Shown in pieces: positions 1-39,889 of a stretch of 64,000 nucleotides of DNA (within the stretch, counting starts at the first letter, position 1; the number at the start of each line of letters is the position of its first letter). The notes under the pieces are model-generated. The model was given only the letters and a program-made list of their open reading frames with translations. It searched no databases and had not been told where the DNA came from. The position numbers and the translations under genes are program-made. Origin of the DNA: Phytopythium helicoides (taxonomy: Eukaryota > Oomycota > Peronosporomycetes > Pythiales > Pythiaceae); contig JANFNE010000031.1 in NCBI GenBank assembly GCA_024867545.1, forward strand, positions 62,001-126,000, given 5' to 3'.

Positions 1-396
1 GTCGTCGACGTGACATCCTACCTGGCGAGCAAAGTTGGTGTCTAAGATCGAGACTTCCGCGCCGGAGTCGAAGAGAATCTGCGCTTTCTCGTTGTTGATC
101 TTCCCGGTAGCCTTCGCCTGTTTGAACCACTTATCAGGAGCGTGGTGCTTCCAGTAGCCGCGGGATTCTCCCGGCAGCAGCTCTACGGTCATCGTCGCGG
201 GCTGACGACTGAATTCATCATTCAACCGAAGACTGGATATGGCAGCCAAGTCGGGGGTATGTAGGTCACATGCATTACCATCCTTGGAAGTTAGCTCCAC
301 GCTAACTGCTTCTCGTGATGACCGTTCCACATATGCATAGATGCAAACTTCAGACCGCTCGTCCCGCACTGGTTTCCAACCCAGCGAGCGTCCTAG
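1..396 (-). CDS. Ty3/gypsy pol, 5' end: aspartic protease (partial)
   Basis: Partial, cut by the left edge of the window. The frame one step back (-1) from the upstream gag frame is open from the gag stop to base 1. Near 37-80 it encodes a retropepsin active site, read as LFDSGAEVSIL, with the catalytic Asp-Ser-Gly at about 61-69. Retropepsins cleave the Gag-Pol polyprotein inside the retroelement particle. The stretch before the active site (about 110 residues) is a linker with no motif I recognise. Reverse transcriptase, RNase H and integrase would lie beyond base 1 and are not seen. The -1 frame relation, the position directly after a zinc-knuckle gag and the DSG motif together support a gypsy-type pol. 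Integrity cannot be judged because only the start is visible. Confidence 0.75.
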
Positions 397-8515: not shown

Positions 8516-10242
8516 TTATGCATGTACACAAGAGCGCCGATTGTGGCCCACCTCACTGCATATCGTGCAGCGCCGTGTCGGTCGTGCAGTCGATGAGCTT
8601 GGGCGCTCACCTCGACTAGCAAAACGGCGGGTGCGCATGCGGCCCGTACCACTTAGATTGCTGACTGGTGGCAGGACCTGTCCTGGTGACAAGTCGGCCT
8701 CGATTGGGATCTCAATACCGCCTCGCTCTGCGTCATCCCCGCAGCCATACCCGACCAAATAATTCTCGACAAAGTAGCAGCTGTCTCATGCATCATGCAC
8801 TTTTTCTAAACACTTGAGTTTGTTCAACGAGGCGATGTAGTGACGGCAAGGCAATCCGTACTGCTGCATGAATTGGCATGTGCATGATCTCTCAGCAATC
8901 ACAACTCGATGCGTAGAGCGTACACCGCGCGTGCTCTGTACAAATGTTTTTCCGTTTGTTGAAGGACGGACCTCATAGAAGCCTGTTGCTTCAGTTTGCT
9001 CGGCCACGATTTGAGATGCATAAGGTGTCAGAACGCGTCCTTCTCGTTGCCACTTCATTGCTATATGCTGGCTTTGGAAAGCATTATCCATAAACTTTTG
9101 CATATACGAGAGAAAGAACTCGAATGGAAAGTTGTGGCGGTTTGGTACAGCAGCACCATTGCTTAATTCGACAAAGTTTGTAGTGCGCCAGCCGTAGATC
9201 TTGATAATTGCGACGCTACCTGGATGCATAGTCCATCGAGCAGGTCCAATGCCTTTGATGTAGTCTGCGATATGTTTGTGAGTAAGAGCTAGAGTCGACA
9301 GGATCGATTCGTAGAGTTCTGAGGTCTCAGCGGCTTGTAAACGATACACTAGACTCTCGATATCAACTGGAATTGCGCCTTTGAATGCTGATTTTATGTT
9401 GGAGATGATGTGACGGGTGCAAAATCGTACAACTGCCCCGAGAGATGCCACACTTAAGGCTGCAAAGAGACCACGACCACGATCGCTGAACACCGGAACG
9501 CCATCGAAATTAATACCAGCTACCCTGCAATGCCGAATGAACCGTGAGCAATTGTCGGCGTCTTCACTCTCACACAATGCAACTGCAAGGATGATGTTGT
9601 GATTGTCGCCGCCACGTCCCACCAATATTAGCATGACTTCAGTATACACTTGATGCTTCATGAATGCACCGTCAATACCGAGAATGCGCTGTCCATGCTC
9701 TTGATGGCGTTCACAAATGGATGAGACAAAATGGCTCGTCGGAATCGCCCGTTTCGGTCGAGATCGAAAGCACTGTGGCTTTCAGGATTTAAATCACAAA
9801 ACTTGGAGAGAAGTGAAAGTAGCATTCGAAAGTGCTGCTCGTAATCCCCTCTAGTTGTTGCGAGCGCACTGTCCCTTGCTCTGTACATCATTCGTTGAGA
9901 CACCGTGACCCCAGCCACAGCTGCTCGAGCAACTTCAATCTCACCAGCTTGACGAGCGGTAAGTCTCGCAATGCCGGTGCAACCATGACGATCAATGCAG
10001 AATGAGCTGATGTATAACCCTGACACGTTGCACTGCTTTTTCTTGTACGCAATGACGTAAAATGTGCAGGGTGTTGAGCTCGAACAGCTGTAGTATACGT
10101 TCCGACCACCACTTCGCTGTTTATCAATGACCGCACGCTTGGCCTGCGATAGTGCAAGATCCTGGACGAAGGCAGTACACGATTTACGGTCTGGGAATAT
10201 CAATCCAACCTTAATGTCATGCGCTGGATATGATGCAGCCAT
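8516..10242 (-). pseudogene. MuDR-type transposase with SWIM finger and zinc knuckle (two lesions)
   Basis: Transposase of the TIR-bounded element, about 575 codons from ATG 10240-10242. Residues 1-190 are the N-terminal region with a Cys-containing YYSCSSSTPC segment. The DDE domain starts at GQRILGIDGAFMKHQVY (first Asp) and continues through VPVFSDRGRGL (second Asp) and FCTRHIISNIK. A SWIM finger CTCQFMQQYGLPCRH lies near 8860-8920, and a CCHC knuckle CTICSEVGHNRRSC near 8530-8570. Lesion 1: the frame slips by one at about 9690-9705, where the first frame runs past the start of the DDE domain. Lesion 2: an in-frame TGA at 8786-8788 separates SWIM from knuckle although the same frame continues open to 8516. 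Either may be a real mutation, sequencing error or (lesion 1) a regulated shift. Confidence 0.8.
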
Positions 10243-14532: not shown

Positions 14533-17490
14533 TCAACTCACTATCTTTTTAGGGATGATACGGTGGTTGTTTGCTCTGGATTGATGTTGGGCCGGACTCG
14601 CTGACTCGTGACCGCGGCTCGACTCGGAACCGTAAGAGCTGGCACTGATTGTTGAGCCATTCGTAGTAGTGCTCGGTGCCTCTTTTTGCCGCAAAACCTT
14701 GGGAACCAACATAAACCCAATCACCATCAGCGTACAAACCAGGAGAACAAGCGCGAGAAACCAGTAGAATGTGGCAGCCGGCAACTCGACGAGGTATGCG
14801 AGTGGTAGGAGCAGTACGCAAGCAAAACCCACCACCACCGAGGACGCAAAGATCCAAATGGATTCCTGGAAATCGACAGACACGTGTCGAATCAGGAACG
14901 ACAGGTACAAACCTGAACCAAGTAGCACCGTCTTCCAAAACATGAGGATTGCGCTGAAAATGAAACTGGACGATGAGCATTTGGTCGCAGTGATAGTGCT
15001 TGGACCGCCTGGACCACCACCCATTCCTTGGACTGCATACTCGACCTGCGAGGCAGATGGGAAGTCGGCGACGAACCACACCACCAACACAACGGAGTCA
15101 ACCAGCAAGAATGCGCCAAGAATCTTGAACATCGTCGTCGTCGGTAGCACAATACGCTTGAGGTTTCTGGACAAGAACACTCGATACACACGCAGTGACT
15201 TGACGATCAGCGACCCAAACACCATGGTGAACCCAAACGCGACAACCGTCGGTCGAGCTCCACACAGAAAATCAGTCGGCTCGCCTGCGAAAAGCAACAC
15301 CGCGATACAAATAAGGAGAGCACCGACAAGCATGACTTCGAGGAACTCAAACTGTGAGCGGCGGATGATGGGGATGTTGCGATGCTTGGCGATGAGAATC
15401 ATTGCGACAACGATGACGAGCATCACTAGAGACGTGATCACAGCGATCGCAATGGAGGCAGTACTGTTGCTTGGCATGTACTCGCAATCAACGTACATGG
15501 GCTGCTGGAGTTGAGATCGTGGAGCAGTGCTGTCGCACTCGAGAGAGAGTGCTGGGTTGTTGGGGTCTGCAATCTTCCAGACGAACTCAATCAACCGTTT
15601 CCCGTTCGTGAGGCACTGTCTTCCCACTGGCATAGAGTCAGGGGGTGAGCATGGTGGCAGTGTGCGTTAATCTGCTAATCCAAATGCTCGGTTGGTCCGA
15701 AAGCTGCGTCACAAGACGAGCTCAGTCGGAGTGTCTTTGGGATCTCCAAATACCCTCCATCACATACATATGGGAGACTGGCGTTGGCTGGGTTCGGCAC
15801 CTTCCACTTGAACGAGATCTCTCGGAACTGAGAATCGCAGCCTGTGATGTTATAATCTATATGGTCGATAGTACACTCCGGTAGTGGAGACATCCATGCC
15901 TCCCATGCATTGTAGTTGTCACGAACCCACGAACACGCAGCATCGAAATACGGATATTCTGCCTCAGTCGATGAAGAATTGGTCAACACTACATACTTGT
16001 CAAGCAGATCCATCAGTTGGGAATCAATGATACGAAATCTCGACGTGAGACGGGCTACTGGGTCGTTGTTAGCATCGCCTTCGATGTTGATTGCAACCAT
16101 CTTCTGAAGTACGTCATCGGGTTTCTCGTGCAAGATTCCGAAGGTCCGATTGCTGGGCTCGCCGTACCCGTTCTCGCCAAAGTACTTTGCAGATTCAAAG
16201 GAATTATCCCCCATGCCCGCTCGAGGCAACAATACACGCTGCAGCAGGGCTGGATATCGCCGAAGGAATGCGTCTCGGATGCTCAAGAAGGCAAGTGCGC
16301 CGTTTCCATCTTGATGCATTGCGATTATGAACGCTTCCAGGGTCTCGCGGCCGACGAAGCAAAAGTACGCAGGGATGTCCAAATTCGACAGCAGTGATTC
16401 GATATACCCGAGCGTAGCGCGGTAACTTTCGATGACAACAACGACGCACTCTTTGCCGTTTTGCTCGCGTTGATAGCAGGCGTACGACCTGGAGCAATGA
16501 TTTTGGCAGCCGAACGCATCAACGTCACAGTAGGATGTGCTTGGAGGAAAGAACGTGGAGTTTGCTCGGAGATTCGACTCGGCGTGGGCAGTGATGAGGT
16601 CATCGTTGGAGCCGTAGTCGCGCCAATAGTCGGCAAAGAATGCTGGACTTGACGCCACTCCAGCATCGACAATGCTGACGGTCGTAAAGACGGTCTTGCT
16701 ATCTGTAAAACCGACACTGCCGAAACTTGTGCAATCTTCGCTTTCACAAACAAGACCGGAAGGCACTGCAAGACTAATGTGTGTCGGTGTGCATTCACCC
16801 TGTGAATGCGTAAATGATAATCGCTTTTGGGTGTCAAGCTCGTTCGAAGTGCTGTAGATGGACACGGAATAGCCCAGCTGTACACCTCTAGTTAGTCAGC
16901 GAGCCAGCCAGCTATCTCACCCCGACAATAATAACATCAACACACACCGTCTCGAACGCCAAGATGGCAAGCACCATCGCTATGAGCGTCTGTGCGTCGT
17001 TCCCCTGAACCATTTCGACGACAAGCGACCCACTGATCGGCCCAGAGCTCAACACTGAGGCTGCACTGGTTTCACTTGGGTCAACTGGAGCGAATATTTC
17101 GTCTCCTTCTGGCATGCAGCTAGATTCATACGCCTTGGAGCTTGATGTTCTTGTGTCTTCAACCTGCGAGGAAGCAATCTATATCGTCAGAGCGTGTCTG
17201 TTTGTCATCTGGAGCTACCTTGTGTCGCTCACAACCATGAGGCGTACCGAAAAGCGCGGGACCTGGACAGCTGAATGCAAGAACGGGTGCAACAGTGCTT
17301 GAGAGGGCGGAGCTGCTCTGTCGGATGCGGTTACGTGTAGCGTTTGCTCCATTTCCGCGACCCATTCATGTGTCAAGCAGCTTCCGAGCTTTTCTGTGGG
17401 CGAAGATGCGGCAGCTACCATGGCGCAGGACAACACTGCTACTGCTGTGGAGGCGGTGAGAAGAGAGGCAGGGTTCCATCCGAGCCTCAT
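14533..17490 (-). CDS. class C GPCR, copy B, frame broken at the ligand-domain/7TM hinge
   Basis: Exon model 17490-17248, 17163-16948, 16877-14533, with introns of 84 bp (GTACGC donor) and 70 bp (GTGTGT donor). The ATG at 17488-17490 starts MRLGWNPASLL and a hydrophobic signal peptide ending near AMVAAASS. The ligand domain runs to about 15720 and includes paired Cys clusters (YCDVDAFGCQNHC). The 7TM part (14.6-15.5 kb) has seven hydrophobic segments and the FPSASQ/VDFQES loops typical of the copies. A hydrophilic Ser-rich tail follows. Between about 15650 and 15700 the sequence homologous to copy C passes through three frames, and a TAG follows CDAAFGPTEHLD. As written, the ligand domain and the 7TM part are separate ORFs. 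It is otherwise almost identical to copy C. Family members bind amino-acid-like ligands; the ligand here is unknown. Confidence 0.78.
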
Positions 17491-20400
17491 TGTCGACTCG
17501 GTGTTCACGAGTTGCTCTTTGAGGTAAGAGACTAAATTGAGAGTTCGAAACGGGTACTTGAACTGGTCACAATGAGAGGCCATGTCCATTTCCACGGGTG
17601 ATCGTTAGCGTACACAGGTTTACAGTGCTATTTTCGCCCTGGAAGGGATTGAGTGAAGACTTCTGTTGTCCAGTTGGACTTGTAGATCAACCTCATCTCA
17701 CCAAAATCGAAGACTCTGATCGCTGCTCAAAAATCGAAGTTGTTCAATGTGTAATTTGAACCATTTTTACATGCTGAGGCCTCCAATTTTGCTTCGAGAC
17801 GCACCAAGCTACTTTTTTGGGGTGATGCGATAGTTGTTTGCTCTGGATTGATGTTGGGCTGAACTCGCTGACTCATGGCCGTGCCTCGACTCGGAACCAT
17901 AAGAGCTGGCACTGATTGTTGAGCCATTCGTAGTAGTGCTCGGTGTCTCTTTTTGCCGCAAAACCTTGGGGACCAACATAAACCCAATCACCATCAGCGT
18001 ACAAACCAGGAGCACAAGTGCGAGAAACCAGTAGAATGTGGCGGCCGGTAACTCGACGAGGTATGCGAGTGGTAGGAGCAGTACGCAAGCAAAACCCACC
18101 ACCACCGAGGACGCAAAGATCCAAATGGACTCCTGGAAATCGACAGACACGTGTCGAATCAGGAACGACAGGTACAAACCTGAGCCGAGTAGCACCGTCT
18201 TCCAAAACATGAGGATTGCGCTGAAAATGAAACTAGACGATGAGCATTTGGTCGCAGTGATAGTGCTTGGACCGCCTGGACCACCACCCATTCCTTGGAC
18301 TGCATACTCGACCTGCGAGGCAGATGGGAAGTCGGCGACGAACCACACCACCAACACAACGGAGTCAACCAGCAAGAATGCGCCAAGAATCTTGAACATC
18401 GTCGTCGTCGGTAGCACAATACGCTTGAGGTTTCTGGACAAGAACACTCGATACACACGCAGTGACTTGACGATCAGCGACCCAAACACCATGGTGAATC
18501 CAAACGCGACAACCGTCGGTCGAGCTCCACACAGAAAATCAGTCGGCTCGCCTGCGAAAAGCAACACCGCGATACAAATAAGAAGAGCACCGACAAGCAT
18601 GACTTCGAGGAACTCAAACTGTGAGCGGCGGATGATGGGGATGTTGCGATGCTTGGCGATGAGAATCATTGCGACAATGATGACGAGCATCACTAGACAT
18701 GTGATCACTGCGATCACAATGGAAGCAGTACTGTTGGTTGGCATGTACTCACAGTCAACGTACATGGGCTGCTGGAGTTGAGATCGCGGGGCAGTGCTGT
18801 CACACTCGAGGGAAAGTGCTGGGTTGTTGGGGTCTGCGATCTTCCAGACAAACTCAATCAATCGTTTCCCGTTTGTGAGGCACTGTCTTCCCACTGGCAT
18901 AGAGTCAGGGGGTGCGCACGGAGGCAACGATTTCATTCGACCAATCCAAAAGTCGGGATGATCGTTAAGAAGATCACACGGTGCACTGAGTCGGAGTGTC
19001 TTTGGGATCTCCAAATACCCTCCATCACATACATATGGGAGACTGGCGTTGGCTGGGTTCGGCACCTTCCACTTGAACGAGATCTCTCGAACTGAGAATC
19101 GCAGCCTGTGATGTTATAGTCCATATGGTCGATGGTACACTCTGGTAGTGGAGACATCCATGCCTCCCATGTATTGTAGTTGTCACGAACCCACGAGCAT
19201 GCAGCATCGAAATGCGGGTATTCTGCCTCGGTCGATGAAGAATTGGTTAATACTACATATTTGTCAAGTAGATCATTCAGATGGGAATCAATGATGCGAA
19301 ATCTCGACGTGAGACGGGCTACTGGGTCGTTGTTAGCATCGCCTTCGATGTTGATTGCAACCATCTTCTGAAGTACGTCATCGGGTTTCTCGTGCAAGAT
19401 TCCGAAGGTCCGATTGCTGGGCTCGCCGTACCCATTCTCACCAAAGTACTTTGCAGATTCAAAGGAATTATCCCCCATGCCGGCTCGAGGCAACAATACG
19501 CGCTGCAACAAAACTGGATATCGCCGAAGGAATGCGTCTCGGATGCTCAAGAAGGCAAGTGCGCCGTTGCCATCTTGATGCATTGCGATTATGAACGCCT
19601 CCAGGGTCTCGCGGCCAACGAAGCAAAAGTACGCAGGGATGTCCAAATTCGACAGCAGTGATTCGATATACCCGAGCGTAGCGCGGTAGCTTTCAATGAC
19701 GACGACGACGCACTCTTTGCCGTTTTGCTCGCGTTGGTCGCAGGCATACGACTTGGAGCAATGATTTTGGCAGCCGAACGCATCACCGTCACAGTAGGAC
19801 GTGCTTGGAGGAAAGAACGTGGAGTTTGCTCGGAGTTTGGACTCGGCGTGGGCTGCGACGAGGTCATCGTTGGAGCTGTAGTCGCGCCAATAGTCGGCAA
19901 AGAATGCTGGACTTGACTCCACTCCAGCATCGACAATACTGACGGTCGTAAAGACGGTCTTGCTATCTGTAAAACCGACGCTGCCGAAACTTGTGCAATC
20001 TTCGCTTTTACAGACGAGACCGGACGGCGCTGCAAGACTAATATGTGTGGGCGTGCATTCACCCTGTGAATGCGTAAATGATAATCGCTTTTGGGTGTTA
20101 AGCTCGTTCGAAGTGCTGTAGATGGACACGGAGTAGCCCAGCTGTACATCTCTTGTTAGTCAGCGAGCCAGCCAGCTATCTCACCCCGACAATAATAACA
20201 CCAAAACACACCGTCTCGGACGCCAAGATGGCAAGCACCATCGTTATGAGCGTCTGGGCGTCGTTCCCCTGAACCATTTCGACGACAAGCGACCCGCTGA
20301 TCGGCCCAGAGCTCAACACTGAGTCCGCACTGGTTTCATTTTGGTCAACAGGAGCGAATATTTCGTCTCCTTCTGGCATGCAGCTAGATTCAAACGCCTT

Positions 20401-21247: not shown

Positions 21248-24200
21248 ATGTGGGGCGGCGACAAGGACGCCGCGAAGAAGGTGCGCGCGTTGAGGCTGCT
21301 GGCGGGGCGCGTGGCGCGGCGCTGACGGCGGCGCGGCAGTCCGCGGGCTGCGTGGTGTGCGGCCAGGGCGAGGACGGGTCCAGCATCCTGCTGTGCGACG
21401 GCTGCGACGACGAGTACCACACGTACTGCCTGGTGCCGCCGCTCGCGGAGATCCCCGCGGGCGAGTTTTACTGCAAGAAGTGCACGGCGGAGAACCTGGC
21501 GGCCAAGCGCAAGGAGGGCCAGGCGACTGGGGCGGCAGCGGCGGGAGCGAGCGCCCCGAAGGTGCCAGAGCCGCTCAGAGACTCCAAGTACCGCGGCGTG
21601 ACCAAGATCACCACCAAGGGCGTCAAGAAGCCCTTCATCGCCAAGCTATGGCAGGGCACGAAATACGTGCAACTCGGCGTATTTGGCAGCGAGATTGAGG
21701 CCGCGCACGCATACGACAAGGCCGCGCTGCAGCACTACGGCAAGGCCGCGCAGCTCAACTTCCCGCACCTGCACGACAGCTTCGTGCGGCCACAGGCGCC
21801 TTTCTCGGTGCGTACAGTGGCGACGCCGCAAACTGCACCAGCTACCGCTACAGCACCACCAGCAGCGGCGTCAGCAGCAACAGCGGTAGCACCAGCACCA
21901 ACATCAGCATCGGCAACAGCGCCAGCAGCAGCAACAGCCGCAACTTCAGCAACAGCTCCCCCACCATCTGCAGCTACACCAGCGCCAACTCTAGCGCCAG
22001 CACCAGCGCTGACACCGATTGCTCCTGCTGGGTCAGCTCCGCCCATGCACCATCCTGACGCAATGGCAGGACGGGGTAGAGGTCGTGGACGTGGGCGAGG
22101 GCGGGGGCGTGGGCGGGGCAAGCGCATGCCATCGCCAGAACGCACCACAACAACTGACCCTGCAGGAACCATGCCGACCTCATCAGGCACGCTTAAGCGT
22201 CGTAAAACAGACTCGCCAATGTTGGCGAAGAAGTACCTCGGTGTGGAGGTGCATCGCGTCTTCGCCCATGCGCAGATCGAAGTTGATGGAGAGATGATCA
22301 ATCTGGGCACGTTCCCGACAGCGAAGGAGGCAGCGTTAGCATATGACAAGGCTGCGCTAAGGTATTTTGGTGGCAAGCCCGGGACGCCTGGCGCAAGGTA
22401 CGACAACATACTTTTAAACTTCCCAGAGCAGCGCGACGTGCTTTTGAAGCAGGTTGCCGCTGACGAAGAGCGGAAAGCGGCGGGTCAACCGGCGGGAGCC
22501 GCTACCAATCGGAATGCACAGACCGCGAGGTACAATCTCTCCATAACAAAGCTCAACAACTGGGTTTCAAAGCTGCAGCGCTCGGTCAAGCTTGTAGAGG
22601 CATCGCAGCGCGTTCAGTGGCGACCAGATGCTTCCAGCATTAAAAATGAAGAGCAGGAACAGGAAAACGAGGCTTCCAGTGTTCCCTCTTTAGTGAAGAC
22701 AGAGGTTTTCGGCTCAGGGCCGGTGATCAAGAAGGAGTTCACCAAGCGCGATCAGAAACTTCGTGAGAGCGCTTCGCAGATCGAAGCTGCTGTCGCCATG
22801 CTTATCGACGAACTGCGGGTATATTCTGCAAACACTCCGACCGACCCGTTCTTTGAGCCTCCGCCGCGCTGCTCGGTTGTATGGGATCTAATGTCGACAT
22901 CTCGCCATCTGAAGCTTATCAGCTCAATTAGCGAGCTGGCAAACCTCAAAATCATGCCAGATGAAGATGCTAAAAGCGTGGATGGATTGTTTGAGTCGAA
23001 ACTCCAGAGCGTCGTAGACTTTCGTGCTCGCCTGCAAATGTCGAGTACGAATGAGAAACTGAAAATACTGACGCTAGCTACGGACATGGATGCTGCACCG
23101 GACAAAGTTAGCGGCGGCAAGGCTGTAAAATTGTTAGAGAAAACCAGGTATGTCAAGAGGAGGATTCAGGTGAAGAAGCCAACGCCCCCTCATTCCGAGC
23201 AAGGCTCCGATTCGGCAGATGAAGATGTAGCTGAGGAGAAGGAGTCATCTCCAGCAGTGGTTGAAGTCAGCGAGGCAAAAGACGACTCAAATGGTGTCTC
23301 GGTTTCAGAGCCATCTGCAGCGAAGGAAGCAGTAGCCGAGTCGAAATCTAATCCGGATGGCGAAGCCAAATCGACGACAGACGCTATAGAAGATGTGAAG
23401 ACTGAATCCGACAGCGGAGAGCAAGATTGGCGACGACCGAGGTTCTCAACGAGAATGACGATGCCAACGTCTCCACTTCGGAGGCACATGCAGAGTCTAA
23501 AGATATAGTTGAACCTGAGGCCTGATGCAAAAGATACTGCGGTTGACAGCGAAAGCAAAGGGGGTCGATTCCAAGGCTCCTACAACCACTATAGAAGCCA
23601 CCAGTGAGTTTGTTCAGACCGATGCTGTTGCACAAACCGGTGATGTCGAAATGACTGATGTTGAGATCAAGAAGGAGATTATTGAATCTGTAACAGCAAC
23701 TGCGCAACCTTCTCCGCCTGCCCAGCAGCAGGAACAGCCGGAAGAAGTGCCCGCAGAAGATGAGCAAATGGCTGATGCGGAGGAGACGGCATTACCTGAA
23801 GCATCATCCGAATATGTGTGGGAAGTCCAGATTTGCTTAGCTGTGCCTGTTTCTGAGTCCCAACCAGCTGGCGACGCGGAGAATGGTGAACAGTCAAAAG
23901 TGGTATGGCGATTGCTTCCTCTTGACAGCGAGACTGGCCAGTTTGTAGAGGATGTTGGACTCACGGATGAAGAAGTGGCAGAGATGGAGATTTCTGAAGA
24001 AGAAGTGTGTTCATCAAACCTCCCCGTGGATGGGAGAACTCCGTGGATGGAACACCTTCGTCAACTTCATGCGCAAGAGTCGGATGTTCGCCAGCGGATT
24101 CACCGAGAAACGAATCATCAACACGCGCTGCAAGGAATCATCAAGATTGAGCAGGAGCGACTCGAGAAATTCTCGGCTGTGTATCGTAAAGCAATGGCTG

Positions 24201-26595
24201 CAATCACCGAGAAGACCGTGGTCACGCGCAAAAATCATACCCGCGTCAGCCAGGACTCGGCACTTGTCGATCTCATGACTCGCACATTCGACCCGATTTT
24301 GACCAACCTGCTCCACAACTGCGAAAACGCGCTTCTGCACTGTTTCCACAAGCTCTCGAGCCGCTTTGAGGATTTTGAACAAGAGTTTAATTATTACCGC
24401 AGTGCTCTCATCAGCTTGACGCAGGCCGCCGATGCATCGAAGCTGAAGACTGAAGTTGTTGGTGCAGATACTAGCGACCGAGTTGCGAGCGATGAAGTGA
24501 GCATCAAGCGTGAACTCATCGCTGAAGCAACTGGTGATCCATCCGACGTATCAATGGAGCCCGTGGATGCAGGAGAAGGCGGCGATCTCCTAGACAGCGA
24601 TGGTCTGCGGCAAGCGTACATTTCTTTCTACATCGAAGAAATGGAGGCACTTTGGAAAGAGCGGAGCTCGTCTCTAGAGATGGTGCAGGCAATTCAACGC
24701 TCACTTGATCAGAATGTGCAGGCGTCTACTGGTACGAAAGAGGCTCCTACTGCGAAGAGGAGAGAAGCGTGGGGCAAGTTCGAGCACGAGAAGGAACTGC
24801 GCGCAGAGATCGACAAGTGCCTGCGCCAATGGAAGCAGATTGAGTGGCCAACAGAGCTGACAGCTACTTTCTTGGCCCCTATCTCCTCTACGACACCCTC
24901 GCATGACGTAAAGGAGGAGTCTGTGCTAGCAGATATTGTAGATATTGATGAAGATATGGGATCGGTGCCAGCAAACTCCGTCATGGCTGAGTTGCGCAAG
25001 GTTATGATTGACCTGACTCAAGAGCAGCAAGAGGCGCCGGTGCCACCACCGCAACAGACGACGCTGGTTGTTTACCACCCCGCCTTTATCGAGCACCAAA
25101 CGCCAAAGGATCACCCTGAGTGTCCTGAGCGCTTGACGGTAAGCATTTGCGCATGGGACTCTGATGTTGATCACAAACTTACACTGCGTGTTGTGATTTG
25201 CCTCCACCACAGCGTGTCATTAACATTTTGGCACACTTGAGCAAGAAACATCAAGAGACGCTGAAAATCGACCGGTTGACTGTTTCTCCCGAAGAACTCT
25301 GTCCACCGGAGACAACACTACTCATGGTGCATTCCCCCATGTACCTGCGGCAATTGAAGGAGCGTGCAGCGGAAGCGGCGTTGGCGATTTCTCCAAAGTC
25401 GTCGACGTCTCCAGTAAAGTCCCGATCCTTGGTGTTTGAGACGGACTCTGGAATTAGTGACGACAACTCCAAAAAGCGCAAGGACTCGACAAAGTCGCCC
25501 CTCACTGGTGCGTTCGGCGCGTCTAGCCTCGAGCAGAACGGCATCGCCATGGACACGTACGTCAGCGCCAGGTCGTGGGATGTCGCTCGTGCTGCTGCGG
25601 GTACTGTGTGCTTGGCAGTTGATCGTGTCGTTCGAAAGGAGTACCACAACGCTGTGTGCCTTGTGAGACCGCCCGGCCATCATGTTGGGCGTCACGGACG
25701 CACAGAGACGGCGCCGTCCTCCGGTTTTTGTCTTCTGAACAACGTCGTCATCGGCGCGACGCACGCGAGAATGTATCCGTGGATTCGGAAGGTGGCGGTG
25801 CTGGATTGGGATATTCATCACGGCAACGGCACGGAGGAGCTGCTCAAGGATGACCCGGACGCGTTTTTCGCGTCGATTCACCTGTACTCGGCGGGCCATT
25901 ACTTCCCCGGGACAGGTAAGGCTCGCGATGACGGGCGTCTGATCAACGTTGCGCTGGAGAACAGTGGCGCTGGCAGTGGCTCGCTCGCGTTCCGAGAAGC
26001 GATCACGAACAAAGTACTTCCGGCGATGAAGTCTTTCTCTCCGGACATTATCTTTATCTCGGCGGGCTTTGATGGGCATCGCGACGATATTCTCGGTGGC
26101 CTCGCAGCTGTCAAGGACCCAAATGTGCCTGCAGGCTACGTAGAGGAGGACTATGCGTGGGCGACGCAGCAGGTGCTCCAGCTCGCCGGCGAGGTCTGCG
26201 ACGGCCGCGTCGTGTCGGTGCTGGAGGGCGGCTACGACGTGCGGAAGGAGACGAACGCGCTGGCCAAATCGGTGGCGGCTCACATCTCGTCCATCGCGAC
26301 GTTCGAGCTGGAGCTGATGCAAGAAGCGGCCGAAGCCAAGGCGTCCGAGGCGAGCGCCAGCTCGGAGGTGTCAATCAAGCAGGAGCATGGGCTGCTGGCC
26401 AAGCTGCTGGCCACGAGTCTGGACGACGAGGGCGTGGTGATCATTGACGACGAGGAGGAGACGCCAGCGGACGCTGGAGCCGACCACGAGAGCGACAAGC
26501 CGCACGAGAAGGACGCGGGCGTGCACACGGAGGAGGAGGACGACACTGGCGAGGAGGACGACGACGCCGAGATGGAGGACGTGCTGGCCGCGTGA
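21248..26595 (+). CDS. PHD finger - AP2 - AP2 - class II histone deacetylase fusion protein
   Basis: One gene of about 1,700 codons with all domains on one strand. Near 21350-21480 is a PHD finger (CVVCGQGED, CDGCDDEYHTYC, CKKC; C4HC3). Near 21580-21770 and 22220-22430 are two AP2/ERF-like DNA-binding domains (YRGVTKITTKG...AHAYDKAAL; YLGVEVHR...ALAYDKAAL), separated by an Ala/Thr/Pro run and an RGRGRG tract. Helical and acidic linkers follow. The HDAC domain (about 25060-26280) keeps the HH dyad (RPPGHHVG), zinc ligands (DWDIHHGNG, SAGFDGHRDD) and the EGGYD Tyr. An intron at 25139-25212 (GTAAGC...CACAG) joins ECPERLT to RVINILAHL. Frame changes near 21320, 23440, 23520 and in GGGGG at 23560-23564 break the linkers. 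The ATG at 21248 (MWGGDKDAAKK) is the best start but needs the first break corrected. The likely role is targeted nuclear deacetylation. Confidence 0.75.
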
Positions 26596-26789
26596 GGAAG
26601 GTGTCGTCTCGCTCCCATTGGCGGAAATCGTGGCTGTATACATGCTGTAATAGGTGGAAAAAGCGCATTTCGAGTCGTCCAATGGGATCCCTCCAAATCC
26701 CCAATTTCCCCCAATCACATCCCTCCAATCCCCCCGCCGCGGGGCCGTTTCCTCGCAGTCGGGAAAAAGCAAATCCGCCCGCCGCCACC

Positions 26790-28237
26790 ATGAGCGACCC
26801 GTTCTACCTCGCCGACATCCTGCTGGGGCGCGTGGGCGTGCTGCGGTCCACGGCCGAGAGCATCCTGCTGGAGCTGTGCGAGGCGCAGGCCAAGCTCGAG
26901 GCGCCTGGCGACGACGACGCGCTGCGTTTGGCCATCAAGAGCAAGTTGGAGCGCGTGCAGACCAACCTCAAGCTGCTGCGGAAGCTCGTGCCAGAGTTCG
27001 GTGCGTGACGCGGGGCGTTGTGTGTGTTGTGTGTGTGGGGAGGGAGGGGCTGCTGCTAACGATTGTGGATGTGCAGATGGCAAGACGAAGCCCATCGAGG
27101 CCGTCAACCAGACGCACAGGTGCGCGAGATGGCGGCGAAGAAAAAAAAAAGCTGAGAGCTGATGACGCCCGTGGAGCGCAGGAACCTCATGCTCGAGTAC
27201 CACTGGAAGAACCAGGTGCAGGAAATGGGCTCCAAGGCGCAGAATGTGTTCCTGGAGCAGCTTGGAGGCGCCTTCCCCAGGCTCGAGATGCTCGGGGACG
27301 TGCGCTGCCCGCCACCGCCCAACACGCTGTTCGTCGCCAAGTCGCACAAGCGCGGCCGCGTGTTCGACCCCTTCGGCGAGAAGCAGCCCGGGTACGTGTC
27401 TACGGCAGTGGTGTGGAGCTCCGCGGTCGCTCAATAACCACCTGCTTGCTCCTGCGCAGCACGCTCAACGAGATGATGGACTACATGATGGCCAAGAACC
27501 GGAAACTCAAGTTCTTCAAGCACGCAGAGACGACGCGCGGCGGGCGCCGAGTGATCCGCGCCATCCGCTGCGAGATCAACAAGGAGGTCACGGTGCATGT
27601 GTCGTTCAACCCTCCGGTGCCCGAGAGCGGCCCGAACGGTGAGACCGGCGTGGCTGCCAGCCCCATGACGCCGTCCACGCCGACGTCCCCCGCGTTCACG
27701 GGCGGCCGGCTCCGCAGCACGCGTAACAAGCACAAGAAGCAGCAGCAACAGCAGCTCGTCAAAAAGAAGAAGGGCGACATGCTGACCAAGGCAAAGCTCG
27801 CCGCCGAGGAGGCCACCAAGATGGAGATGGAGGAGCTCAAGCTCCGCATCGCCGAGTCGCGAGAGGCGAGTCGCGAGCAGGAGCTGGCGCGCGCCGCGGG
27901 TGCCCAAGTCACCAAGTACATGCAGCGCATCTCGGTGCTGGCATTCAACGAGCCAGCCCCGCTTGGCGCCTGGTCGGAGTCGCAGCACCGCCTGTTCCAG
28001 CTCGTGACGCTCCACTCGCGCAACGCGCTCGAGTACTTTCGTCGACAACACCCCGAGACGAGCTTCTACCACCTCTTCACGTGGCTCGCGTTTTACGACA
28101 AGGTGTACCAGACACCATGCTCGCTGTGCAAGAAGCTGCTCGCCAAGGAGACTGATGACGCGCCGTTCCTGCCGCCGTCCTTCCGCGACTACAGCTCGGG
28201 CCAGGCGTTCCACGCCAAGTGTCTCCCAGTGGAATGA
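26790..28237 (+). CDS. MED27: Mediator complex subunit 27-like protein
   Basis: Start ATG 26790 (MSDPFYLADILLGRVG). Exons: 26790-27000; 27077-27119; about 27157 to 27391; 27460-28237. Introns 27001-27076 (GTGCGT...GTGCAG) and 27392-27459 (GTACGT...GCGCAG) are clear. The middle junction at 27120-27160 does not splice in frame as written; it contains a run of 10 A (27141-27150) and may hold an indel. The C-terminus has the MED27 signature: a FYHLFTWLAFYDKVYQTPC helix, CSLCKKLL, LPPSFRDY and a final FHAKC, a zinc-binding CxxC...H..C module. A charged KKQQQQQ/coiled-coil insert lies in the middle. MED27 belongs to the Mediator tail/upper module that links activators to RNA polymerase II. The identity rests on the C-terminal module. 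Confidence 0.7.
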
Positions 28238-31649: not shown

Positions 31650-33095
31650 GAACTTTCCGTAACTTGTTGAATCCGCTCCTCTAAAAGCGAAGAAAGCGAG
31701 GACAGACCACTTCGTTCTCAGTCGCGAACTTTCCAGGTGGAGAACGTCACCAAGATGGAGCTAAGGTGCGCGGTTTTCGGTAAAGCGGATGTGTTTCCCG
31801 TCCAGATTGCGCGCGATGCGACGGTGAGAGCACTGCAAGAAGCCATCTCGGACGTCTTGAGTACCGAGCAACAAAGAGTCCCGCCAAGATCGTTCGAGGT
31901 CTACTTGCCGAGGAAGGATGGAGTTTGGTTGATTGAATGTCGGAGTGCCGAGAGTTTGCTGCGACCAGATATTGACACCAGGTACACGAAGATGTGTTCG
32001 TCATGGAAGCTCGATAGAGAGGAGCTGTTTGGGGAGAACTTTCAGCCTGATGCCAAACAGATTCACGTGCTCGTGGATCTTTCACCACAGCAAGATGGCG
32101 CCACGAGCGAGGCTTCGCAAGGAACAAAAGTGGAAAAGCAAGTCGGTGAACTGCGAGAGCTCGTTCTGCCGACTAAGCGGAAGCGGCAATACCTCCTTTC
32201 GGAGATGAATCTGATCAAGGGAAGAGAGCTATTACAAGAACTGAATATCCGCACGCTGCCGGAAAGCTCTCTTCCATTCGACACTGGAGACCTAACTCAG
32301 GTGGAAGCATTCGTATGGGATAATGCGCGCGATGAACATGGTCAAGTCGTCGAGGTCACCGAGGAGCAGCAACGAGAACGATATCGCAAGTACATGGAAG
32401 ATAACATTGGCGATGTGCTTGCAAGCAAGAAGCTTTGCGTGCTTAGTTTGGAAAAAGACAGCAACCTCCTGAGTGCTATAGTTCCTGACCACGACGTCGA
32501 ATTCGTTGGAAGTACGAATATGCTCATTCTGAACTATCTTGCAAAGCAACACCCAAGTAATTTGTGCCTTTTGCCTGAGGCGAGGATGCTGATCGAAGTG
32601 AAGAGGGAGATGAACCAAGACGCCGTCTTTCAGGCTTTGTCGGAGCTGATTGCACTAGATGTTCTCGTTCCTGATCCAGTGATGGCGCTGCTGACGGACA
32701 TGACTGGTCATTGGCAGTTTTTCTGGGTTTCCGAGAGCAGCAGCACGCGTGTCATCATTCGAACGGTGACTATAACGGAAGCGAGTGCAGCGTTTGCAGT
32801 GATCAGGACTCTGTTAGCTCAGTCACCATCGTCTGAAGATGAAGAGATCAGTCTCCCGTGCTTTAAGAACCCTGTCAAGCGCCGCAAGTTAGTGACGGAG
32901 TTAGCATTGTTCAGCGAGGATGGTGGAGGTGGTGATGGCATTCGCGAAGCCCTCGAGCAGTACAACGACATCGCCAGTGAGTTGGGTCCTGATTTGGATA
33001 TGGCGCGTGCAGTGGCGAAGAAGATCATGGAATCGACCTCGATATTCGGGAATCGCCCACCGGGTTATTTCGACTGACTGATCCGACAAGAAAAC
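31650..33095 (+). repeat. left arm of a ~1.45-kb inverted duplication carrying a Crinkler gene
   Basis: Sequence from about 31650 (GAAGAACTTTCCGTAACTTG) to about 33095 recurs inverted at about 39890-41340, including ~100 bp of upstream sequence. Homology stops soon after the stop codon. The arms differ at scattered sites throughout. Confidence 0.85.
31755..33077 (+). CDS. Crinkler (CRN)-family effector with PD-(D/E)XK nuclease-like C-terminus
   Basis: 440 residues from ATG 31755 (MELRCAVFG). Residues 1-105 are the Crinkler header, a ubiquitin-like domain: VFPVQIARDA, ALQEAI, YLPRKDGVWL in the place of the LFLAK motif, and GENFQPDAKQIHVLVDL at its end (the HVLV boundary). The C-terminal part carries an acidic residue in HDVEFVGSTNML and an IEVKRE motif with a following helix (FQALSELIALDVL), the layout of restriction-endonuclease-like PD-(D/E)XK folds seen in other Crinklers. 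Crinklers act in host nuclei in plant-infecting oomycetes, and some kill host cells; whether this one does is unknown. No signal peptide is obvious. The frame is intact, with ~35 amino-acid differences from the inverted copy at 39908-41230. Confidence 0.82.
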   Translation: MELRCAVFGKADVFPVQIARDATVRALQEAISDVLSTEQQRVPPRSFEVYLPRKDGVWLIECRSAESLLRPDIDTRYTKMCSSWKLDREELFGENFQPDAKQIHVLVDLSPQQDGATSEASQGTKVEKQVGELRELVLPTKRKRQYLLSEMNLIKGRELLQELNIRTLPESSLPFDTGDLTQVEAFVWDNARDEHGQVVEVTEEQQRERYRKYMEDNIGDVLASKKLCVLSLEKDSNLLSAIVPDHDVEFVGSTNMLILNYLAKQHPSNLCLLPEARMLIEVKREMNQDAVFQALSELIALDVLVPDPVMALLTDMTGHWQFFWVSESSSTRVIIRTVTITEASAAFAVIRTLLAQSPSSEDEEISLPCFKNPVKRRKLVTELALFSEDGGGGDGIREALEQYNDIASELGPDLDMARAVAKKIMESTSIFGNRPPGYFD

Positions 33096-35332: not shown

Positions 35333-35881
35333 ATGTGTTTGTATGGAGACTGTCTTGAGAATGGATTACCTGTGGAGATTGGATTGCAAGAGGGGAGTGG
35401 CGGACGCTATGACGCCTTTCATGTCATGCAGCATGCAGCCACGATGGTGCTGCAAGTTGAAGTGGTCGAGCACGGAAGTTCACGACGAGATTTTGGATCT
35501 GAGAGATTTGACCATACGGTCGCACTGAACTCGGCCTACAAGCTGGTGGTAGTCGTAAGTGTTGTGGGGTTTGATGATGAAGGGCTCACCAAAACGTATC
35601 ACGAGTTTGTGGCTCATCCACTTGCATTCGACTCACAGCTCCCGTTTTCGTCAGGAGTGGACATTTGTGACCGAGAAGAATCGCAGACGGATACCAACGG
35701 GGGCGAGGTTGACAAGGAAACGGGAAATCGTGTCGTAAATCTATCACTGGACTCTACTGTACCCTTGCGGTTGTTGTCGAGATGCATGGGTGGAATTCGG
35801 ACTCTGCAGCGTGTTCGAGCGCAGACCTACACGAGAAAACTCACTCGTCGGTGCTGCTCGTGCTGCTGGCGTTGCTGGTGA
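35333..35881 (+). CDS. possible small hypothetical ORF
   Basis: About 182 open codons on the plus strand from ATG 35333, filling the gap between two minus-strand genes and overlapping the 3' end of PPIP5K by ~40 bp. No domain recognised. The last 30 residues are the antisense of PPIP5K and Cys/Arg-rich, so at least that part is unlikely to be functional. It may be chance. Confidence 0.2.
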   Translation: MCLYGDCLENGLPVEIGLQEGSGGRYDAFHVMQHAATMVLQVEVVEHGSSRRDFGSERFDHTVALNSAYKLVVVVSVVGFDDEGLTKTYHEFVAHPLAFDSQLPFSSGVDICDREESQTDTNGGEVDKETGNRVVNLSLDSTVPLRLLSRCMGGIRTLQRVRAQTYTRKLTRRCCSCCWRCW

Positions 35882-38800
35882 AGTACTCGGAGCGCTTGAG
35901 CGGCGGAGACGGAGCAGGGCTCGCGGCCTCGGGGCTCTCGCCACCGCTCGCCTTGCTGCTCAGCTCCTTGCGCTCGGCGAACGCGATCGTGTCGGCCAAG
36001 TAGTCAACGACTTCCTGGCACGTCAGGTCCTCGCGAGAGATGATCTTAAGCGGCGACACCTCCAGCTGCTTGTCCATGTCGAACGTCAGCGGGTCCTGGT
36101 CCGCGCCAGGAGACAGTGACACCTCCAGGCGGAACCGCTGCGGGTCCGTCTTGGCAAACTGGAAGCGCTCAAACACGCGCACCACAAAGTGCGTCATGTA
36201 GCAGAACTCGGGGATGCCCTCGATCCACTTCTTGGCCTCGTCGCCGACGGGAGACGGCACCGGGCAGTCGGCACGGCCGTACCGCAGCACGTTCAGCAGC
36301 GTGTGCAGATGCGACTCACTTGTAAAGTACAGCCGCGTGCGGACTGCACGGTGCGTCGACTTCACGCGGTGCTTGCTCTGCACGTACGAAGGGTTCAGGC
36401 GGTGCGTAGAGTGCAACTCAAGCCCACGGGCCAGGTCCAGGTCGTCCTTGATCTTCATCAGCAGCGTGCGGCACATGGCTGAGCCGATCGCGACCTTCTC
36501 GTCGACGTTGATCCCGTACTCCTGCGGCACGAGTGCGTGTGCGAGCGATGCCGCGATGTCGAGCAGCTCGCGCACACTACGAAGGTTCAGGTGTGAGTTG
36601 TGCAGTGCGTCGTACCGGATGCAGTCGTGGATGTCGGGGATTTTGGACAGGTCGTACGTGTCCGTCTTCTTGATGAAAAAGTCGCGGTAGAGCTTGGCCC
36701 AGCGCTCGCGCATGACCTCGAGCGACTCACGCCCACACGGCTCCGGGTATTTGAACTCCACCTCCGCATCGATGCCTCCACCGCGGCCACCAACACGCTG
36801 CTGTCGCCGTTTGGCTCGCTCCTCCTCCTCTTCTTGGCTGAGCGAATGCTTGTGGCGACGGCGCGGGTGGCTCGTTGTCATGCTGCTGACACTCAACGAT
36901 CGCTCCACTGTTGGCAAGTTCGCGCGCAAGTCGGTTTGGGCCGTCTGCGCCTGGCGCTTCGAAAGCTCGACACGAAGCTGAGCCTTCTCGTGAATCGTAC
37001 GAGTGAGCTGCTCCTTGAGCGACTTGAGCAGCTGGTGCATGATGGCCATCTTTTTGATGGGTTGGTCGACCTGCTGCAGCGCGAGCGCCACCGAACGAGT
37101 CAGCCGCGACTCCGAGTCCATGAGCTGGCTGCAGTGATCGTCTCGGTGGATGATCTTGTGGAGGCGTTGCTTGACCTTCATTATGATCTCCTGAGCAGAT
37201 GACCCCGACTGGTCCAACATCGAGTCAGCGTCCTTGGACTTAAGCACCAGACCCACAAGGATCGGAATTAAGTCACCCTCGAGCTCCAGCAAACCCTTTG
37301 CAAACGATGCCGCAGTTTTCTGGACGCGACCTTCGTCGCTTGTGTAGATCTTGAGGTCGTGGCGGTACGTCGAGTGTAGGCGGTTCAGCCCTCCCTCGCC
37401 GCCAGGGTACATCATGCGTCGGAATTTCTGTCCAAGAAGCTCTGCTTGCTCTTCGCCCATGTGCGTCAGGTCACCACCCCACTTGATAATAAGGAGTAGC
37501 TTCACAACGACCTGCGTGCCATCCTCCGCCGTCACAGTCTCCTTTGGCTTTAGCTGCACTTTGCGATTGATTCCCACCAGGCGCCAGCGCTGCAACACAT
37601 CACGGAGCGTTCGGTAGCCCTGCACTCGGTCCGACGCATCTTCTCCAAAACCTTCCTCTCGCTCACTGAGGAATTCCATGAACTCGGGGTCCCGAGCATC
37701 ATGCTTGGCGAGCAGTTGCTTGCTAACCTCTAGAAGTTTTTCGAGGTCTGACACAGCCTTAATCTTCAGATCCTTGCTTTTCTTCTTACCCGACCCAACA
37801 CGCGCCTTGTAGTATTCAAGGAAGAGTGGGTGGCAAACATGCATCTTCATCTTTTGCTTGGGCGTACGGTCGCCGTGACGAATAACTGCAAGCACGCATC
37901 GAAGTTCTTCCTCCTGGAAGTTGTCGGTCCCGTCAGTTAGGGAAAGTGAGCTCGATGACGAGTGAAGCGTCGAGCCCCTAGCAGCCATTGGTGGCTCGGC
38001 GAGTTCCGCGTGCGGATCCTCACTTGCAAAACGCAGAGTGAGCGAGCCAAATGCCGAGAAATCATCCGCGCCAAGAACCTTGCCGGTGGCAGTATTCTGC
38101 CCTGACAGCGCTCCCTCCAGAAACGTAGAGAGAAGCACCGCGCAGTCATCATAGTATTTGTCTGAGTTCTTGACGAAGCTCCACCCGTTGACGTCACACA
38201 CGTACGCTGCACCGCGCACACGGAGAATGTCAAATCCGCACACGGATTGACGGAATGCCCGGCATACTTGGCGCGCGATCTCTTTTTCACTGGGTGACAG
38301 CATGACAGGGTAGCGCACCTCCTTTCCGTCTTGGTCGCGAACGACTCGTCCGTCCAGTACAGGCGACTTGCGCGCTTCTGCGTGAGCATAGTTTGGGCCA
38401 ACCGTGTAAACTTTCACGTCCGTGCCCTGCGTTGACAAAAACTCCTCGTAAATGAACGATCCGTTGCGCCGCACTTGGTTGATCTTGGGGTCAAATTCGG
38501 ACGAGCGGTTGCCAATCTTGCGGAAGAGCTTCTTGCAGCCGCCGCCAGCGCTCATGGGGTAGTAAATGTTGATATTGTGGTCGTCGCCATCGACAGGCTT
38601 TTCGACAAACGGCTTGGAGATGCGCTCTCCATTCACCTCAAGATAGTCTTCACTCTCGATGACCTCGGGCTCTGGCGCATCGCCGTAGCCGTCGCGGCTG
38701 ACGATGATATGGCGTGGCGTGGGGACTCCGCGCTCCTCGAGCACACGGTAGACCTCTCTGCGGTCCTGCAGCCAATGCTGCGTGTCGAGATCGTTGACGA

Positions 38801-39218
38801 CGACTGGGTGGCGTAGCGCCACGTACTCGCGCGCCTTGTTGAGTGGGAACCCCTTGGAGAAGAAGGACACGAGCGCGTCGCACACAGGCCACTCCTCCAC
38901 AGGGTCCTCCAAGATGGTGCGGTCGCCAAAGAACTTGATGCTCACGAGACTCTTGGGCAGGCGCGAGAGGATCTCGAGCATCGGGTCCGACTTGGCCTTG
39001 CGGTCCAGCACGCAGATGCCCAGCGTGTAGCGCGCGCCATCACGGCCGAGCGCCAGCGCCGCCACGCGCCTCGCCGTCTCCTTGTCGGCCTCGGACTCCT
39101 CCACTGCTGGCTGTGGCTGGGCCTGGGGCTCGCACTGGCTGTTGTTGCTGCTTGCAGCCGGCGCCGGCGCGCGTGGGGGCTGCCAGCGCGGCACAGTCGA
39201 CGAGGACGCGAGCGTCAT
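35841..39218 (-). CDS. PPIP5K: VIP1/PPIP5K inositol hexakisphosphate and diphosphoinositol-pentakisphosphate kinase
   Basis: Intron-less, 1,125 residues from ATG 39216-39218 (MTLASSSTVP). The frame is open for 123 more codons to an ATG at 39587, but that part is Pro/Ala/Ser-rich and unlike the family, so the inner start is preferred. Residues ~75-410 are the ATP-grasp kinase: YTLGICVLDRKAKSDPM, IKFFGDRTIL, YEEFLSTQGTDVKVYTVG, VCDVNGWSFVK. Residues ~470-1,100 are the histidine acid phosphatase-like domain, starting at VLAVIRHGDRTPKQKMK (RHGxRxP motif). The enzyme makes inositol pyrophosphates (1-InsP7, InsP8) in the cytosol, and its phosphatase half can remove them. The length agrees with fungal and plant VIP1. 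It is complete and undamaged, and is enclosed by the inverted Crinkler pair. Confidence 0.93.
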   Translation of the reverse strand: MTLASSSTVPRWQPPRAPAPAASSNNSQCEPQAQPQPAVEESEADKETARRVAALALGRDGARYTLGICVLDRKAKSDPMLEILSRLPKSLVSIKFFGDRTILEDPVEEWPVCDALVSFFSKGFPLNKAREYVALRHPVVVNDLDTQHWLQDRREVYRVLEERGVPTPRHIIVSRDGYGDAPEPEVIESEDYLEVNGERISKPFVEKPVDGDDHNINIYYPMSAGGGCKKLFRKIGNRSSEFDPKINQVRRNGSFIYEEFLSTQGTDVKVYTVGPNYAHAEARKSPVLDGRVVRDQDGKEVRYPVMLSPSEKEIARQVCRAFRQSVCGFDILRVRGAAYVCDVNGWSFVKNSDKYYDDCAVLLSTFLEGALSGQNTATGKVLGADDFSAFGSLTLRFASEDPHAELAEPPMAARGSTLHSSSSSLSLTDGTDNFQEEELRCVLAVIRHGDRTPKQKMKMHVCHPLFLEYYKARVGSGKKKSKDLKIKAVSDLEKLLEVSKQLLAKHDARDPEFMEFLSEREEGFGEDASDRVQGYRTLRDVLQRWRLVGINRKVQLKPKETVTAEDGTQVVVKLLLIIKWGGDLTHMGEEQAELLGQKFRRMMYPGGEGGLNRLHSTYRHDLKIYTSDEGRVQKTAASFAKGLLELEGDLIPILVGLVLKSKDADSMLDQSGSSAQEIIMKVKQRLHKIIHRDDHCSQLMDSESRLTRSVALALQQVDQPIKKMAIMHQLLKSLKEQLTRTIHEKAQLRVELSKRQAQTAQTDLRANLPTVERSLSVSSMTTSHPRRRHKHSLSQEEEEERAKRRQQRVGGRGGGIDAEVEFKYPEPCGRESLEVMRERWAKLYRDFFIKKTDTYDLSKIPDIHDCIRYDALHNSHLNLRSVRELLDIAASLAHALVPQEYGINVDEKVAIGSAMCRTLLMKIKDDLDLARGLELHSTHRLNPSYVQSKHRVKSTHRAVRTRLYFTSESHLHTLLNVLRYGRADCPVPSPVGDEAKKWIEGIPEFCYMTHFVVRVFERFQFAKTDPQRFRLEVSLSPGADQDPLTFDMDKQLEVSPLKIISREDLTCQEVVDYLADTIAFAERKELSSKASGGESPEAASPAPSPPLKRSEYFTSNASSTSSTDE

Positions 39219-39889
39219 GTTCCCTGCACTTCCGGCTGCTTCAGAGGGCTCTAAAGGGTCGTTTAGAGCTCTACGCGAAGCTTGTGGGCTACTGGAGGCT
39301 GCTGGTGGCCGCAGAAGGCTGCAGAAGGCGCTGGGAGGCCGGGAAGCGTGCCGCAACGCCGAGAAAAGCCTGTAGACTCGTCGGAGGCCGTTTGTGGGGC
39401 TTCTGGGGCCGCTGGAGGGCCAAAAAGACACCTGGAGGACCGCGAGAAGCTGCGGAGAGCGCTGGTGGAGACCTGGAGGCGCTGCAGGCCGCGGAGGCGG
39501 CGGGGGAGCCGAGCACCGAGCGACTGGAGCGGAGCGGGGACGGCGACTCAACCGGACTGGGAGTTGCCCGCGCGATGGGGACGGCATAGAGAGGCCATGA
39601 TACTGGTTTTAGGAAGGTTATAGGATATAGAAGTTGATATGTATGCGTTGTCGAAGGGATGATGCCAATGGGGATGCTCTTGCGCGATAGTGACGCCTGC
39701 GTGTAGCCATGTTGACGTTTGCCATGTAGCCATATTTGTTGGTGGAGCCTCCTGCATCTGCGTGATAACGAGCGGACGTGACAAAGATGGACATTGACAG
39801 TTAACCGGGCAGACAGAGGAGTTCAAAAGAGCTTGCAGCCTTTGTCTCTCGATTCATCGCATCGTTCCATTTCCTTCTGTCGCCGCATG

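Follow-up and report, generated by a model that had tools for sequence, protein, structure and literature searches.

Histone deacetylases (HDACs) are usually recruited by other proteins and, to our knowledge, the direct fusion of sequence-specific DNA-binding domains to a histone deacetylase is rare. Such a fusion has been reported in oomycetes: as far as the domain list and the expression data on the HDACs as a group given by Wang et al. 2016 go (PMC5112689), these organisms harbor class II HDACs that carry a PHD at the N-terminus along with two AP2 domains, and a Mediator subunit 27 (Med27) domain at the C-terminus. The AP2 domains of plants, according to the account in PMC12249877, read the bases of the GCC box through four arginines. 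The locus discussed here is located at positions 21248-26595 of a 64,000-nucleotide stretch of the Phytopythium helicoides genome (contig JANFNE010000031.1, positions 62,001 to 126,000; this whole stretch is hereafter referred to as the window), whose assembly consists of 49 Mb in 100 contigs. Its domains, their order, and the group of organisms are identical to those of the oomycete HDAC in the domain list of Wang et al. 2016, from which it differs in that Med27 is a separate gene in the window. The PHD-AP2-AP2-HDAC architecture is real and unusual, but it is not new, having been published for oomycetes in 2016. The first-pass annotation of the window had described it as unknown in plants, animals, and fungi, a statement that may stand as such, but not as a claim of novelty, since the domain list in PMC5112689 already contains an oomycete account.

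We assign a probability of about 0.7 to the reading that the locus is an oomycete PHD-AP2-AP2-HDAC gene, coding for a single nuclear protein of ~1,740 residues that would most likely act as a chromatin-bound co-repressor. The Pfam analysis of the raw frames disclosed, on the + strand (as for all the features of this gene) and in this order, a PHD finger (21349-21483; PF00628, E 5e-12, 46.1 bits, cut-off 24), two AP2 domains (21583-21765 and 22231-22425), and a zinc histone deacetylase domain (25058-26274; PF00850, E 4e-66). The Pfam AP2 family was matched in two stretches (E 2e-9, 37.9 bits, cut-off 33.3), and a four-sequence profile of the second domain retrieved the PDB entries 7wq5 (E 6e-10) and 1gcc (E 2e-7). 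The probable start is the ATG at 21248, which opens a first exon of 11 codons (21248-21280, MWGGDKDAAKK) spliced in frame onto SAGCVVCG at the beginning of the PHD finger; similar N-termini are found in two oomycete models (P0124 and P0139), the other models starting differently. Intron 1 (21281-21339, 59 nt, GTGCGC..GGCAG, with CTGAC close to the acceptor) explains the change of frame existing immediately upstream of the PHD finger, and intron 2 (25139-25212, 74 nt, GTAAGC..CACAG) splits the deacetylase domain early in its sequence, both introns being of the GT-AG type; the reading of the frames places the stop codon, TGA, at 26593-26595. The three long open stretches of the locus (697, 526, and 460 codons) have, at the local base composition, a chance of being free of stops of 7e-13, 7e-10, and 1e-8, respectively, and all of them align to oomycete proteins, so that they are not random.

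The full-length search returned 16 matches, 12 of which are members of the same family; the remaining four combine a PHD with domains such as PF02373, PF02375, and PF01388, and lack an HDAC. On the basis of precomputed Pfam annotations, PHD, AP2, and HDAC occur together in five of the 12 members, PHD and HDAC in four, PHD and AP2 in two, and AP2 and HDAC in one, with the Aphanomyces and Saprolegnia members showing PHD and HDAC. When the members were aligned, Pfam AP2 was matched in 10 out of 12 at E <= 1, and the two misses, which the result leaves unnamed, are taken to be the Saprolegniales members. In the Saprolegniales, both AP2 domains nevertheless emerged when segments delimited by eye were compared as profiles, with probabilities of 98.8% and 95.5%, and a profile search matched the second one to 7wq5 (E 1e-11). 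The architecture is thus conserved in Peronosporales and Saprolegniales, and, given the recovery of the AP2 domains in the latter, the PHD-AP2-AP2-HDAC layout is older than the split between the two orders. No fused member was found outside oomycetes in two full-length searches, which covered limited numbers of candidates and were not exhaustive.

As for the deacetylase, the alignment to the HDAC6 domains and to the bacterial 5ji5 disclosed the catalytic residues, namely, the His-His dyad (25678-25683), the zinc ligands Asp (25810-25812), His (25816-25818), and Asp (26071-26073), and the catalytic Tyr (26233-26235). A check of 19 relatives revealed four HDAC motifs in 17 of them, the exceptions being P0121, which ends before the domain, and P0131, which ends early. 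Domains, order, gene ends, and catalytic residues are as the first-pass annotation had proposed (Pfam matches, splice check, and HDAC6 alignment). In the sequence search of the PDB, the top four matches were HDAC6 entries (best E 7e-67, a value that sums two catalytic domains), followed by the bacterial 5ji5, HDAC15, and others; the highest single-stretch score among the five aligned was that of 5ji5 (166 bits). The best 60 of 136 PDB rows comprise HDAC4, 6, 7, 10, and 15, clr3, Hda1, and bacterial deacetylases/hydrolases, without any class I name, and the domain thus appears closer, on sequence grounds, to class II than to class I structures. It resembles the HDAC6-type class II enzymes and the bacterial HDAH in its catalytic domain and active-site residues; however, it carries insertions, with a Pfam match of 356 residues for 291 profile positions, and, unlike in the HDAC6 type, a single catalytic domain is joined to DNA-binding and PHD domains.

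Readers of H3K4me3 have a cage Trp two residues ahead of the zinc-ligand His, a rule derived from ING-type fingers. This Trp is missing from the window PHD, where a Glu occupies the position, as it does in 11 of 15 relatives, the other four being unmatched because the PHD is absent or the start is cut. The closest PDB sequences are the first PHD fingers (PHD1) of KDM5B and KDM5A (2mny, E 1.3e-17; 7klo, E 1.9e-17). The H3-tail contacts of KDM5B PHD1, as listed in PMC4225485, are D308, Y310, E321, L325, L326, D328, and W351. According to a hand alignment, the window PHD shares the H3R2-binding Asp (D328) and the LL pair (L325 and L326), and it differs from KDM5B in having a Phe at W351.

The AP2 domains matched WRI1 (7wq5), AtERF1 (1gcc), and TEM1 in the PDB. 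Structural comparison of the predicted model supports an AP2 fold for the first domain, and the region of the second one (residue blocks 301-380) was modelled with a predicted local distance difference test score (pLDDT) of 84-95. The fold and the tandem arrangement are like those of WRINKLED1 and AtERF1, from which the window gene differs in the loss of base-contacting arginines (by hand alignment), in a long basic linker separating the two domains (22068-22130, GRGRGRG-rich), and in the fusion to a deacetylase; this linker is present in many relatives, and in the alignment it is missing from P0129 and from both Saprolegniales rows. In vitro DNA motifs, unlike those of plants and humans, were described in 2024 for Phytophthora infestans AP2 protein(s) (PMC11267843), which may or may not be members of the PHD-AP2-AP2-HDAC family, no gene being named in the text; these motifs render DNA binding by the AP2 domains plausible.

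If the locus encodes a chromatin-bound co-repressor, the first AP2 domain, perhaps with the help of the second, would anchor the protein on DNA with a preference of its own, not of the plant type, and the PHD finger might bind the start of H3 tails devoid of H3K4me3. The predicted coiled coils described below might allow pairing or the joining of partners. The class II zinc deacetylase at the C-terminus would strip acetyl groups off the nearby histones and thereby cause repression. The first-pass annotation had proposed a self-targeting eraser that would require no recruiter of its own, which is a plausible hypothesis. A broader proposal appears quite improbable, namely, that in oomycetes AP2 serves mainly as the inbuilt targeting tag of one enzyme, older than the Saprolegniales-Peronosporales split, in which a single chain combines reading, DNA binding, and deacetylation; this enzyme would write repression at its own motif with no co-repressor complex being recruited, and would be kept beside a Mediator subunit, into which it would occasionally be spliced. 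A search of the genome retrieved AP2 at the HDAC locus only, yet it missed the second AP2 domain of this very locus, and the rarity of AP2 is thus to be considered a lead rather than a result.

Several observations weigh against the co-repressor reading. In addition to the summed HDAC6 E-values and to the higher single-stretch score of the bacterial enzyme, the contacts D308, Y310, and E321 of KDM5B PHD1 are not kept in the hand alignment, which makes specificity for H3K4me0 doubtful, and the PHD part of the model mf87b98ac8a43 has low confidence. A Foldseek search with the same model gave no match at E <= 0.001, the best one being 7wq5 (1.2e-3), and not even the RGV arginine is present in the second AP2 domain. 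At the level of the gene, the codon-usage track departs from frame 1 around 23428 and settles in frame 2 somewhere from 23520 to ~23560, in an assembly that, as judged from the paired loci considered below, gives no sign of being generally noisy.

The most probable of the alternatives, though a doubtful one, is that PHD and AP2 do not aim the enzyme, with the second AP2 domain, in particular, having a structural or protein-binding role and a partner recruiting the deacetylase. None of the four plant-type base-contacting arginines is kept in the window AP2 domains, according to a hand alignment that crosses small gaps and is uncertain; the sheet of the second domain is short and weakly basic, and the match of Pfam AP2 in just 10 of the 12 members points in the same direction. 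Nevertheless, in a comparison of four sequences, the RGV arginine is retained in the first domain together with several lysines, and the in vitro motifs of the P. infestans AP2 protein(s), within the limits of the text cited (PMC11267843), argue for DNA binding.

The second question concerns the continuity of the frame. That the locus codes for one polypeptide, as originally claimed, holds true in relatives (P0121 and the multi-domain models), whereas the assembly shows a disrupted frame at 23.43-23.56 kb, within an acidic linker (23428-23560, delimited by coding-frame inspection and by the codon-usage track) that is weakly conserved among relatives. The frame changes are at least two, probably three, and their count varies with the switch penalty, the path being 1-0-2 at penalties of 4, 5, 6, and 8 and 1-2-0-1-2 at 3, with sliding windows suggesting 1-0-1-2; among the 27 GT-AG pairs found in the interval, none represents a convincing intron. 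We somewhat favor a sequence error over a true break, although this explanation is weakened by the paired loci, which do not point to an assembly that is noisy overall. The HDAC locus is single copy in the searches of its own genome, without a paired locus; six paired loci exist elsewhere, and their gaps over aligned columns, non-coding DNA included, are 0/3,135, 3/3,147, 7/3,168, 25/4,105, 25/3,391, and 146/3,744, the last one in a pair with 87% identity. The members of these pairs are located on separate contigs, with 94-96% identity in five cases (L003/L005, L004/L006, L008/L009, L018/L019, and L023/L024) and 87% in the sixth (L012/L013), and they represent either uncollapsed haplotypes or a hybrid/duplicated genome.

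If the frame changes were real, the product would end after the AP2 domains and the helical region, at the stop at 23506-23508, the HDAC part would be lost or internally started, and the gene would be a recently broken one. This reading, which we regard as unlikely, would account for the occurrence of two or three frame changes in ~130 nt of the sole copy found and would agree with the few gaps in three of the six paired loci; however, the breaks fall within a poorly conserved linker, the coding signal persists across the interval, merely in other frames, and the downstream stretches of 526 and 460 codons remain open and conserved, the last point weakening also the possibility of an old pseudogene.

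It is far less probable that two genes, PHD-AP2-AP2 and HDAC, abut at 23.5 kb. The stop at 23506-23508 is indeed followed 16 bases later by an ATG (23525) that is in frame with the downstream part, and separate models are annotated in Pythium insidiosum (P0128/P0017) and in Peronosclerospora sorghi (P0139/P0014), but the gap between the two frames is just those 16 bases, the P0128 split falls at the position of intron 2 and not at 23.5 kb, and another P. insidiosum model (P0126) is a single protein of 1,859 amino acids. Moreover, P0121, P0122, P0124, P0125, P0126, and P0127 are continuous across the interval. In P0121, one uninterrupted frame of 1,238 codons extends from the PHD as far as the beginning of the HDAC, spanning the doubtful interval, and stops just past the intron 2 point of the window gene (HPECPERLT). 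P0127 (1,841 amino acids) derives from a contig no longer than 5,835 bases, which leaves hardly any space for introns, and P0125 (1,890 amino acids) comes from a likewise unannotated source. A junction of two genes at 23.4-23.6 kb, the outcome that the first-pass annotation had named as the one that would overturn it, is thus contradicted for the family by relatives reading through.

The single-protein reading leaves the Med27 domain of the published layout to be explained, since it is not found at the C-terminus of the window protein. In the window, Med27 is a separate downstream gene with several exons (26790-28237, + strand; PF11571, E 1e-16, 61.1 bits, cut-off 25; open frame 26654-28237) and its own ATG at 26790 in GCCGCCACCATGA, 194 bases after the HDAC stop. 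PF11571 is attached in three of the 12 family members (P0123, P0137, and P0138), with different junctions, and these fused database models look, from their sequences, like merged predictions of two conserved neighbors; the lack of Med27 does not speak against family membership, since the published feature probably derives from merged gene models. The least probable alternative, i.e., that HDAC and Med27 are also produced as a fusion protein, in keeping with the domain list of Wang et al. 2016, could draw on those three members and on a GTGAGG overlapping the HDAC stop (region 26581-26794; five GT-AG choices would join the frame to Med27, four of them with that donor), but the three fused models have unlike joins, a stretch of P0138 resembles intergenic DNA read as protein whereas the P0129 model of that species stops short of Med27, the window shows a stop, a 194-base spacer, and a strong Med27 start context, and the Med27 start motif DPFYLADIL is missing from all seven other models checked. 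One GT-AG choice would yield the junction DPFYLADIL, as in the fused Peronospora effusa model.

Two further regions of the gene deserve mention. Downstream of the AP2 domains, a conserved region (22507-23091) with predicted helices at residues 390-423, 469-498, 512-534, and 544-584 matches no Pfam family; among the 19 proteins compared, 12 are 28-53% identical to it, the remaining seven being HDAC-only models. Long helices are predicted at 24038-24730 (model helices 160-296 and 347-390, with high-confidence blocks up to 96 pLDDT and a tract, 295-343, below 50), probably forming a coiled coil; the model of this middle region had no Foldseek match in the PDB at E <= 0.001.

The rest of the window contains two genes with the N-terminal domain of the Crinklers (PF20147), a family of oomycete effectors, at 31671-33077 (+) and 39908-41338 (-), and, near each other, two genes for class C seven-transmembrane receptors (7tm_3) at 14533-15666 and 17809-19113 (-). 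A long open frame (35841-39608, -) carries inositol pyrophosphate kinase/phosphatase domains of the PPIP5K type, and traces of mobile elements, with Retrotrans_gag and SWIM/MULE transposase domains, are located at 393-2783 (-) and 8786-9781 (-).

On the whole, the analysis extends the AP2 domains of the family to the Saprolegniales, and suggests that the published domain layout needs correcting, Med27 being a neighboring gene. The family would make it possible to test targeted deacetylation within one protein, in organisms that count crop pathogens among them.

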